Part shown: piece after piece, positions 15 to 30,165 of the stretch
How positions within the stretch are numbered: position 1 is the stretch's first letter
Layout of the letters: each line of letters opens with the position of its first letter
From: Nanobdellota archaeon
GTDB taxonomy: Archaea > Aenigmatarchaeota > Aenigmatarchaeia > Aenigmatarchaeales > Aenigmatarchaeaceae
DNA length: 64,000 bases
Direction: 5' to 3'
NCBI GenBank assembly: GCA_018901755.1
Contig: JAHIDZ010000020.1
Span: 1-64,000 of the forward strand
Translations under genes and position numbers: made by a program
Notes under the pieces: model-generated
The model's input: only the letters and a program-made list of their open reading frames with translations
The model's database searches: none
What the model was told of the DNA's origin: nothing

Positions 15-139
15 GGGCTCATGGCTCAACCCGGTAGAGCACTCGCTTTGCAAGATCAAATCCAAAATAGCGAGGGGTTGGGGGTTCAAATCTTAATTGT
101 ATATTTTTACATTAGGTGAAATTCCCCCTGAGTCCACCA
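15..139 (+). tRNA. tRNA-Ala(TGC) with two introns (53..68 in anticodon loop, 91..122 in T-loop), CCA encoded
   Basis: Acceptor GGGCTCA/TGAGTCC, T-stem GGGGG/CCCCC, anticodon stem CTCGC/GCGAG. BHB helices TTTG/CAAA and TTCA/TGAA with 3-nt bulges at both introns. Confidence 0.9.
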
Positions 140-386
140 TAGCTAAACTAGTGGTTCTCCCGCAAGATTAATGTTAATAAATAAAGAGAGTCCTGAAGAG
201 ATGTGGGAAAGATTTAAGAAATTAGATTTGATTAAGGATGATGAATAGAAATTTAATTAAAATATTTTATACAGTTGAAAAATCAACAATATAGTAGATA
301 AATCAACATAACAGATCTATACAGATACGCTTATGTTTTTCTTGTCTAAGCCTTATGGATATATTTCATCAAATTTGAATAACCCA

Positions 387-6776: not shown

Positions 6777-6835
6777 TGTTAAAGTTAATATATTATAGGA
6801 GGTGATCCAGCCGCACCTTCCAGTACGGCTACCTT

Positions 6836-6955
6836 TTCATAAAATGCCAACAGTTAGAAAAATTAAATCCTCTCATATCACCTCCAGTCAGACACAAAGT
6901 CTGCTGCCTTTTCTTCAATCATTAAGGATCAATCGAAAATTCTGCTGGTCATTTT
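6836..6955 (-). other. 16S rRNA intron 3, about 120 nt, no ORF
   Basis: BHB: CATA/TATG helix, bulges AC|A and AA|A; inner AAATG(A)CCAGCAG / CTGTTGGCATTT. Splicing gives GTCATAAC|AAGGTAGCC. Confidence 0.88.
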
Positions 6956-7081
6956 GTTATGACTTAACCCCACTCACAGGTCTTTGGCTCGACTTTATTA
7001 AAGTAAAGCCTCACCAAAAATCTACTCGCATGGTTTGACAGGCAGTGTGTGCAAAGAACAGGGACGTATTCAGCGAACGAT

Positions 7082-7926
7082 ATCACAACAGAAAATTCAT
7101 AAATATAATTTTATTGAAGATATTACATCTTCAATTGGTTTATTTATAAATATTTTGTCATATTCTGTTTCAAGTATGTTTTTTTACTTCATTTTCTATA
7201 ATACCATCGAGAACAACTATCATTTTAATATTTGTATGATGTTGTCGCATTTTAATTGCCTTGTAAGCAAGTTCGGTTGCTTGCAGTCTCTTTCTATATT
7301 TTGATTTAAGTTCTTTCATCTCAATTATAACCTTTGGGTTATTTTGAGACGGAAATATAAAATCTACTACAAATTTTCTAGAGTTTTCTATAGTTACAAC
7401 ACCATTAAAAGTATACTGTACCCCAATTTTATCAAGTTCAATAATAAATTTCTTTTCTTGATTTGTTGGTTTTTTATTTACTGCTCCTCTAATTGATCTT
7501 TCTTTTGATGCTCTAAAACTCATTCTTTTTGCGTATTCGCCTTGAAATTTTCCTTTATTTGCAATATCAGAATATCTTTTAGTTAATGTGTCGGTATCTG
7601 CAATAATTTCTAACTTATTTATCATTTCTACTATTCGTTCTATAAGTTTTATGTTTAGTTTTTTTCTTTTTCCGTTTTCAATTGCATATATTGTACCCTG
7701 ACTCACATTAAGTAAATTAGCAAGCTTTCGTTGGTTAATGTTTAACATCAAACGAAAAACAAGCAGTTTCTGTGGATCTTCTGATAATATTTCTTCATAT
7801 TTTTTATTATTTATATATTTCAGAGTTTCAGTGCATAACTTTTCAATCTCTTTGTATTCAATAATAATCACCGATATAATAAATATATCGGTAACTACTA
7901 TTTATAGATTTAATGAACTTTCTGTC
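7082..7926 (-). other. 16S rRNA intron 2, about 845 nt, in helix 43, ORF-containing
   Basis: BHB: CATA/TGTG helix, bulges AA|G and AT|A; inner ACAGAAAGTTCATTAAA / TTTTATGAATTTTCTGT. Confidence 0.88.
7170..7871 (-). CDS. Intron-encoded protein: XRE-type HTH plus PD-(D/E)XK-like nuclease domain (putative homing endonuclease)
   Basis: 'NQRKLANLLNVSQGTIYAIENGKRKK' HTH; 'KFVVDFIFPSQNNPKVIIEMKE' D-x(n)-ExK; lies inside 16S intron 2. Confidence 0.65.
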   Translation of the reverse strand: MIIIEYKEIEKLCTETLKYINNKKYEEILSEDPQKLLVFRLMLNINQRKLANLLNVSQGTIYAIENGKRKKLNIKLIERIVEMINKLEIIADTDTLTKRYSDIANKGKFQGEYAKRMSFRASKERSIRGAVNKKPTNQEKKFIIELDKIGVQYTFNGVVTIENSRKFVVDFIFPSQNNPKVIIEMKELKSKYRKRLQATELAYKAIKMRQHHTNIKMIVVLDGIIENEVKKHT

Positions 7927-7955
7927 TTTATGACGCTCGCTTACTAGAGATTTCG

Positions 7956-7986
<31 letters not shown>

Positions 7987-8397
7987 TGAACTGAGGCTAG
8001 GTTTAGGCGATTAGCTTCTCCTTTCGGAGTTGCATCGCATTGTCCTAGTCATTGTAGACCGCGTGTAGCCCAAGGTATCCGGGCCATACGGACCTATCGT
8101 TGCCCACTCCTTCCTCTGCTTTATCAGCAGCGGTCCCAACATAGTGCTCACATTTTTGATTTCGGATTACTCCAAAGATAAAATGTGGTAGCAAATGATG
8201 GCGTGGGTCTCGCTCGTTAACCGACTTAACGGCACGCCTCAAGGTACGAGCTGACGATGGCCATGCAACACCTCTCAGCGTGTCTGGTAAGACCTTTAGC
8301 CTGACCTTCATTCTGCTGTCAACCTTGGTAAGATTTTCGGCGTCGAATCCGATTAAACCGCAGTCTCCACCTCTTGTGTGTTCCCCCGCCAATTCCC

Positions 8398-8997
8398 TTA
8401 AGTTCGTTGTAATAGAAGCTCCAATAAATGTAATTTATCTGGATGCTCAAATGGTATGAGCCTCCTAAATATTAAAAGATTATTTATTTTAGAAATATAA
8501 AACCTGTTTGTTTCTGATTTTTTATCGGCAATAAAAATTTTGCTACATTCTATTTTGTTATTTATTAGCCAATTACGAATAAATTTCAAGGATTCTTTAT
8601 TCTTTTGACTAAATCCAAGAGATTTGTCTTTTATACTTATATCACCCTCAGCATCAAAAAATCCAGCAATATAATTTTTTATGATATCTTTATTTGCATG
8701 CTTGATTATTTTTGGTGTAGACCAATATTTTTGCGGTGATATAAAATCAAACTCATTAATTAACATATTATGCACCAGCTTTGATGAAAATCTAATACGA
8801 TGATGTTTTTGTTTATATTTTAACAACCATCCAGGTTTTCCAAACAATTTATTTAAACGTTTAGAAATGGATTCTTTCAACCATCGTTTATCTTCCTCAT
8901 ACCAAACTGCGATATAATTGCGGCTTGATTTTTCATAGAAGACGCTGCCATCTCTCAAAGCACCAACAAGATATGCCAAATCAGGTTTTATTTTCAT
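8398..8997 (-). CDS. LAGLIDADG homing endonuclease in 16S intron 1
   Basis: 'LAYLVGALRDGSV' and 'KNYIAGFFDAEGDISI'. Likely start MKIKPDL; the longer ORF to 9066 runs into the 16S exon. Confidence 0.88.
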   Translation of the reverse strand: MKIKPDLAYLVGALRDGSVFYEKSSRNYIAVWYEEDKRWLKESISKRLNKLFGKPGWLLKYKQKHHRIRFSSKLVHNMLINEFDFISPQKYWSTPKIIKHANKDIIKNYIAGFFDAEGDISIKDKSLGFSQKNKESLKFIRNWLINNKIECSKIFIADKKSETNRFYISKINNLLIFRRLIPFEHPDKLHLLELLLQRT

Positions 8998-9024
8998 ATA
9001 AATGATTAATGGAACTTCTACTAT
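8404..9024 (-). other. 16S rRNA intron 1, about 621 nt, near the known 908 site
   Basis: BHB: GTTG/CAAC helix, bulges AA|A and GA|A; inner TAGTAGAAGTTCC / GGAGCTTCTATTA. Splicing gives GGTTGAA|ACTTAAGG. Confidence 0.9.
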
Positions 9025-9916
9025 TTCAACCTTGCGGCCGTACTCCCCAGGTGGTCCGCTTAACACCTACGCTCCGTCACCACAAACTCACGTAGAGTTC
9101 GTGACGACAAGCGGACAACGTTTACAGCGTGGACTACACGGGTATCTAATCCGTTTTGCTCCCCACGCTTTCGTCCCTCACTGTCAGACTCGTTCCAGGT
9201 GGGCGCCTTCGCCACCGGTGGTCCTCCGTGGATTAAAGGATTTAACCCCTACTCACAGAATACCCCCACCCCCTCCCGATCTCAAGTTTAGCAGTTTTCC
9301 CAGCATGCCTGACAGTTTGCTGCCAGATTTCACCAGGAACTTGATAAACCAGCTACGGACGCTTTAGACCCAATAATCGTGATCACCATTTGTGGCGCAG
9401 GTATTACCGCGGCGGCTGGCACCTGTCTTGCCCACCACTTATTCCTCTAGCTTTTTGGACTAAAGAAAAGATTATGCTGTGCATAATCACTCAGGGTTCC
9501 CTTCTCACACGCTAATGAATTGGAAAGTTTTCGCGCCTGCTGCGTCCCGTAGGACCTGCCTTCATGTCTCAGAAGGCATCTCGAGGCTCCCACTTTCATG
9601 GCCCCTACGCGTTATAAGTTTGTGAGTAGTTTAAACTCACAACAGCTTGATACGCCGCAGCCCCATTCTTAGACGCCGAAGCTTTTATTGTTGATACATT
9701 CCAGTATTCGACAACTATGGAGTATTAGCCTCACTTTCGCAAGATTATCCTCCATCTAAGATTAGGTTAGCTACGTGTTACTGAGCAGTTCGGCGAGGTC
9801 TTTCACCTCTCGCCTCGCATGGCTTAATCGAACCCTGATAACAGTGATCTCCGGCAGGATCAACCGGAATTAAATTGTGCGGGATTGCACTTTATTATTA
9901 TGTCATTTTTAACACA

Positions 9917-29976: not shown

Positions 29977-30165
29977 TGGTGGGGTTGGAGGGATGTGTTC
30001 GAAACAATCCCTAAACTTTGGGAAAATTTCTTTGAACCCCCATCGACGGTTTTCTCAGTCATCGAAAAACTCATTTCTCCAAACAAATTTGGAGACCGTT
30101 ATCTTAGCCAGGTTGGACCACAATTCTGGTCGTTAAATCCCCAGTGCAGCCACCCTAATGACCCC
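29977..30165 (-). tRNA. tRNA-Trp(CCA) with three introns (about 30124..30161 acceptor stem; 30052..30088 anticodon loop; about 29994..30030 T-loop), CCA encoded
   Basis: Exons GGGG+TTG TG GTCC..., ACGGT CTCCAA + A ACCGT, GGGGG TTCAAA + T CCCTC, CAACCCC ACCA. Confidence 0.8.

Follow-up and report, generated by a model that had tools for sequence, protein, structure and literature searches.

A tRNA-Ala(UGC) gene with predicted introns in its anticodon loop and T-loop, and recurrent T-loop introns at position 59/60 in one class of DPANN archaea

Anatomy of the tRNA-Ala(UGC) gene

The window analysed here is a stretch of 64,000 nucleotides, positions 1 to 64,000 of contig JAHIDZ010000020.1 (C4) of the Nanobdellota assembly GCA_018901755.1, a genome of 835 kb in 21 contigs that is 91% complete. 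Close to its start, at positions 15–139 of the forward strand, lies a tRNA-Ala(UGC) gene with an encoded CCA that is interrupted by a 16-nt intron at tRNA position 37/38 and a 32-nt intron at 59/60. Its layout reads GGGCTCA-TG-GCTC...GAGC-A-CTCGC-TTTGCA[16-nt intron]A-GCGAG-GGGTT-GGGGG-TTCAAA[32-nt intron]T-CCCCC-TGAGTCC-A-CCA. On this strand, exon 1 (tRNA positions 1–37) occupies 15–52, the anticodon-loop intron 53–68, exon 2 (positions 38–59) 69–90, the T-loop intron 91–122, and exon 3 (positions 60–73 plus CCA) 123–139. Removal of both introns in silico yields a 77-mer that forms a perfect tRNA-Ala(TGC) cloverleaf, with a G3-U70 pair, A73, and the encoded CCA; the G3-U70 pair is a typical identity feature of tRNA-Ala.

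Both introns follow the archaeal bulge-helix-bulge (BHB) rule, with a 4-bp central helix, a 3-nt bulge at each junction, and an outer helix. At 37/38, the outer helix is CTCGC/GCGAG, the central helix TTTG/CAAA, and the bulges are CA·A and AT·A (the dot marks the junction), while at 59/60 the corresponding elements are GGGGG/CCCCC, TTCA/TGAA, AA·T and AT·T, together with a 5/5 inner helix. The exonic strand of the 59/60 central helix, TTCA, corresponds to tRNA positions 54–57 and lies at 85–88, with its intronic partner TGAA at 117–120, both on the forward strand. An intron-aware parser applied to the unspliced gene returned the anticodon TGC and introns at 37/38 (outer/central/inner helices of 5/4/3) and 59/60 (5/4/5), and 59/60 was the best BHB register for the T-loop intron. 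A 4/4 central helix with a 5/5 inner helix arose in 0.035% of dinucleotide shuffles of the T-loop intron, and a 4/4 central helix with an inner helix of at least 3 in 0.5% of shuffles of the anticodon-loop intron. In the minimum-energy fold from RNAfold, the central helix is open; the BHB fold is just 0.3 kcal/mol less stable. An earlier note on this DNA, made from the sequence alone, had named both introns and delimited the one in the T-loop, and it proved right to the base, with a canonical BHB at each and a cloverleaf restored by splicing in silico.

The interrupted gene escapes standard searches. Unspliced, it received no ARAGORN call and no Rfam match at the gathering cut-off, and a permissive search of all contigs with Rfam's tRNA model gave a partial match of 14.7 bits over positions 7–64. 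ARAGORN called Ala(tgc) on the fully spliced sequence and also when the T-loop intron alone was removed, and it found nothing when only the anticodon intron was removed. Because removal of the T-loop intron is sufficient to restore the call, the earlier note's point that simple searches overlook this gene is proven. Genes with T-loop introns are invisible to common tRNA finders, and the tRNA sets of these archaea consequently look incomplete when they are complete. The gene at 15–139 is apparently the sole Ala(UGC) locus of the assembly, in which Ala(CGC) and Ala(GGC) are also present, and it should therefore be needed.

Introns at 59/60 recur across the class

The earlier note had suggested a survey of relatives for T-loop introns. 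We searched the order and the class with two covariance models, R1 built from Ala genes and R2 from tRNAs with 59/60 introns, and read 100 fetched stretches plus the loci returned by the searches, requiring acceptor, T-stem, and junction pairing for each 59/60 call. Among the fetched loci, we identified 101 distinct 59/60 introns, 9 to 119 nt long, in 44 genomes of the class; these counts are not a census, since R1 and R2 favor tRNAs with T-loop introns, the genomes are kin rather than independent, and the survey covered search results and fetched stretches. With a perfect acceptor and T-stem required, 66 of the 100 fetched loci had a T-loop 59/60 BHB, as did none of 500 shuffled loci. This stringency was adopted because earlier T-loop scans had returned chance hits and noise: a strict T-loop BHB scan lacking the acceptor-stem test was dropped since its hits were mostly chance, as was a first, noisy relaxed full-gene scan. 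Matching a raw pattern against the genome gave no useful signal (723 and 761 matches versus approximately 600 in the control).

The anatomy, conservation, and covariation of these introns can be read directly from the sequences. Across the 101 introns, the intronic partner of R57 changes in step with R57 (A-T 45, G-C 21, A-C 5, and G-T 4), with a Fisher p of 2.7e-10 and 0 of 10,000 permutations, values computed over related, non-independent genomes; G-A is also frequent at this pair (16). The C56-G pair is kept in 99 of the 101. In a 13-sequence alignment, 97% of the structure cells pair, versus 73% in shuffles. Similar introns also occur in different tRNAs of one genome: in G012, the 59/60 introns of Ala and Val match almost completely for over 40 bases, and similar 59/60 pairs occur in G082, G092, and G059. 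At the small end of the range, G013 and G015 have 10-nt T-loop inserts at 59/60 with a 3–4-bp central helix and no inner helix (L093, L100, L114, L140, L141, and L150), which are possibly minimal introns.

Outside the class, all matches of the same model in three Woesearchaeota/Nanoarchaeota genomes were of intronless length, and it gave only 3 matches of 108–109 bases among the approximately 135 matches listed for 60 Thermoproteia genomes; two of those Thermoproteia loci were scanned and are tRNA-Met genes with 59/60 introns. A heimdallarchaeote (Asgard; G119, loci L246 and L254) has two tRNA-Ala genes with 59/60 T-loop introns. To judge from these sequences, 59/60 is in use in several phyla and looks especially frequent in this class.

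The position is listed among the non-canonical sites of archaeal tRNA introns in a published review (PMC4090602). Published 59/60 introns follow the BHB rule at the same position as the Ala intron and are often accompanied by an intron at 37/38, while those described here belong to another lineage, recur in many isotypes of one DPANN class, and include inserts down to 9–11 nt. Multiple-intron tRNAs and intron transposition are described in Thermoproteales (Sugahara 2008 and Fujishima 2010, as cited in PMC4033280). The likeness lies in several introns per tRNA and in the near-identical introns that relatives of our genome carry in different tRNAs, and the difference in that the Ala intron itself shows no sign of transposition. 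Asgard tRNAs are intron-rich, often with non-canonical positions and several introns per gene (PMC11291895); they resemble the Ala gene in these respects and differ in phylum. None of the publications searched deals with tRNA introns of Aenigmatarchaeota, although this argues only weakly that such work does not exist. The kind of T-loop intron is already known; this Ala case is real, and its class-wide recurrence and polymorphic integration site, described below, are worth following.

A 25.5-kb element at the 3' end of the tRNA gene

The end of contig C2 and the starts of contigs C1 and C4 (the window) consist of the same 141 bases, which span the tRNA-Ala gene. A 16-bp attachment core, CCCTGAGTCCACCATA, lies at window positions 126–141 of the forward strand, and C1 contains two copies as direct repeats, attL and attR, at C1:126–141 and C1:25629–25644. 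Moreover, C1 25629–25754 is identical to window 126–251, comprising the core followed by window sequence from 142 on. The repeated core and the window sequence at the far end indicate that C1 holds a 25.5-kb element that has integrated at this tRNA's 3' end, and that the window is the empty site. The element encodes a tyrosine integrase at C1:198–1451, on the tRNA's strand (compared with Pfam and PADLOC; PF00589, E = 4e-20), and an SNF2 helicase and a type IIG-like methyltransferase are among its cargo. The integrase and the 16-bp direct repeats make it a candidate tRNA-integrated element of the pNOB8 type. Occupied and empty sites were both assembled, suggesting that the element is present in part of the population and that the two states coexist.

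It follows that an intron-bearing tRNA gene can still be an integration target, and the polymorphic element at this gene provides a natural test of an old proposal, that tRNA introns block the integration of elements (Randau and Soll, as cited in PMC3293823). Applied to the present case, the hypothesis holds that the Ala T-loop intron was selected for shielding its gene. In line with this, the intron adjoins the core, which lies wholly 3' of it (the intron ends at 122 and the core starts at 126, three bases past the last junction), and at 16 bp the core falls short of the 44 bp that PMC3293823 quotes for the SSV1 site. However, both an occupied and an empty site are present in the assembly, so the gene is a working target in spite of its intron, which restricts the placement of the core at most. 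We consider selection for shielding unlikely.

The locus also invites comparison with a tRNA-Thr of Caldiarchaeum that is disrupted by a mobile element (PMC3293823). Both cases combine an intron-bearing tRNA, an adjoining recombinase gene, and population heterogeneity. The Caldiarchaeum intron is proposed to have arrived with the element, whereas here the intron lies outside the core and is present at the empty site as well.

The T-loop intron of tRNA-Trp lies one base away

A tRNA-Trp(CCA) gene, probably with three introns, occupies 29977–30165 of the reverse strand, and ARAGORN called Trp(cca) on its spliced sequence. On that strand, a 37-nt T-loop intron lies at 29995–30031, a 37-nt anticodon intron (37/38; BHB 5/3/4) at 30052–30088, and a probable 38-nt acceptor-stem intron at 30124–30161, whose position would be 4/5 (or 5/6) and whose motif is weaker (central 4/4, outer 2, inner 1). 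The earlier note had assigned the Ala and Trp T-loop introns to the same 59/60 position, which is incorrect for Trp: at 58/59, this intron forms a 4/4/5 BHB with the central helix GTTC/GAAC, versus 5/1/1 at 59/60, where one of the four central pairs is made. The comparison of the two T-loop introns that the note had proposed revealed no likeness beyond the shuffle level (233 of 500 shuffles scored as high).

These results bear on whether the Ala and Trp T-loop introns could go back to a single mobile intron or be targeted by the same enzyme. Both do lie in a T-loop, and relatives contain near-identical 59/60 introns in different tRNAs; against this, the Ala and Trp positions are one base apart and their sequences no closer than shuffles. 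We regard such a common origin or enzyme as very improbable, and an intron transposed between Ala and Trp was rejected as a candidate on the same two grounds. Since the Trp position is off by one and sequence likeness is lacking, the common targeting mechanism that the earlier note had proposed is unsupported for the Ala–Trp pair, while its broader idea gains support from the recurrence of 59/60 in the class and from the similar introns across tRNAs in G012, G082, G092, and G059.

The genome also contains a second Trp(CCA)-like tRNA at C11:10790–10860, which is intronless, has the odd T-loop TGCAATT, and perhaps derives from a mobile element.

Conservation of tRNA-Ala(UGC) in relatives

The same Ala gene is present in G005, a genome from another genus of the same family, with one exon difference and both introns, at 37/38 and in the T-loop; its upstream flank appears similar by eye to that in the window. 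The T-loop intron of G005, 31 nt long, is homologous to the 32-nt intron described here, and all six of its six inner-helix positions pair despite three substitutions. The Ala(UGC) gene of G012, from another family of the same order, has at 59/60 an intron of 54 nt that is unrelated in sequence. The Ala(UGC) genes of G001, G007, G010, and G036 have no T-loop intron, and as G001 is placed in the same genus, with quite different Ala(UGC) exons, inheritance of the intron is patchy.

The idea that the insert is a decay mutation or a contig-edge assembly artefact and the gene a pseudogene, to which its position at an assembly branch point common to C1, C2, and C4 and the silence of standard tools might lend weight, is very improbable and largely refuted already by G005, because that independent genome has the same two introns and the integrated element accounts for the common contig ends, and furthermore the gene is identical on three contigs, perfect in its exons and BHB geometry, and apparently the only Ala(UGC) locus of the assembly. 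Our preferred reading, to which we assign a probability of roughly 93% from sequence evidence, is that 15–139 is a functional tRNA-Ala(UGC) gene of an uncultured Aenigmatarchaeota archaeon with two independent archaeal BHB introns, predicted to be spliced, of which the one at 59/60 is of a portable kind.

A model for portable introns at 59/60

How these introns are cut and ligated, and by what route they spread, we infer from gene content and intron sequence. EndA and RtcB are both encoded in the genome. In the proposed scheme, EndA would recognize each BHB in the precursor and cleave every bulge after the second of its three bases, and RtcB, the ligase, would then join the Ala exons. At 59/60, the T-stem serves as the outer helix and T54 T55 C56 R57 as one strand of the central helix. 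Because nearly all tRNAs share this exonic half, T54–R57, one 59/60 intron could fit any tRNA; an intron placed there would need an ending of about YGAANN and nothing more to fit almost any of them. Introns at 37/38 differ in this respect, since their central helix involves anticodon bases. Such portability predicts that introns recur at one site and pass easily from one tRNA to another, and occasional copying of introns between tRNA genes may add to it. Portability combined with occasional copying best explains the recurrence of 59/60 introns across the class, and this recurrence at one site supplies a rule, simple and open to testing, that would tell which sites in tRNAs can accept introns.

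The EndA gene lies at L063:1992–2528 (contig C17 of G000), and the nearest named relatives of its product are Candidatus Aenigmatarchaeota MAGs, at 84% identity. A structural model of this EndA matches the M. jannaschii enzyme (1a79) with TM scores of 0.88/0.92. The Tyr and His of the catalytic triad are present, with Ala at the position of the catalytic Lys (K156 of M. jannaschii), and every Aenigmatarchaeota EndA sequence that we read has Ala, Ser, or Thr at this position. The main (alpha) subunit retains Tyr and His, between which lies a conserved insertion rich in Lys (KKGPK); we speculate that this loop might supply the charge of the absent lysine. Some relatives have a second, adjacent EndA subunit that likewise lacks the catalytic Lys. 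A more inclusive picture, which we offer as tentative and think somewhat doubtful as a whole, is that portable introns can settle quite generally at 59/60 in Aenigmatarchaeota, because the invariant T-loop gives half of each BHB. Such introns would spread between tRNAs, live alongside elements integrating immediately 3' of them, and be excised by an endonuclease that works despite lacking the canonical catalytic lysine.

Other interrupted RNA genes of the genome

Further tRNA genes of this genome are interrupted, many by introns at 37/38 and four by introns of 29–31 nt at 30/31. The latter four, Arg TCG, Arg TCT, Ser GGA, and Leu TAG (loci C7:19180–19283, C21:2704–2809, C11:84395–84509, and C20:108822–108938), have introns of similar BHB shape, which possibly constitute one family. 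The 16S rRNA gene, at window positions 7879–9870 of the reverse strand, carries an insertion with an open reading frame (8398–9066) whose product, inspected by eye, resembles a LAGLIDADG homing endonuclease. A further piece resembling a 16S 3' end is located at window positions 6795–7000.
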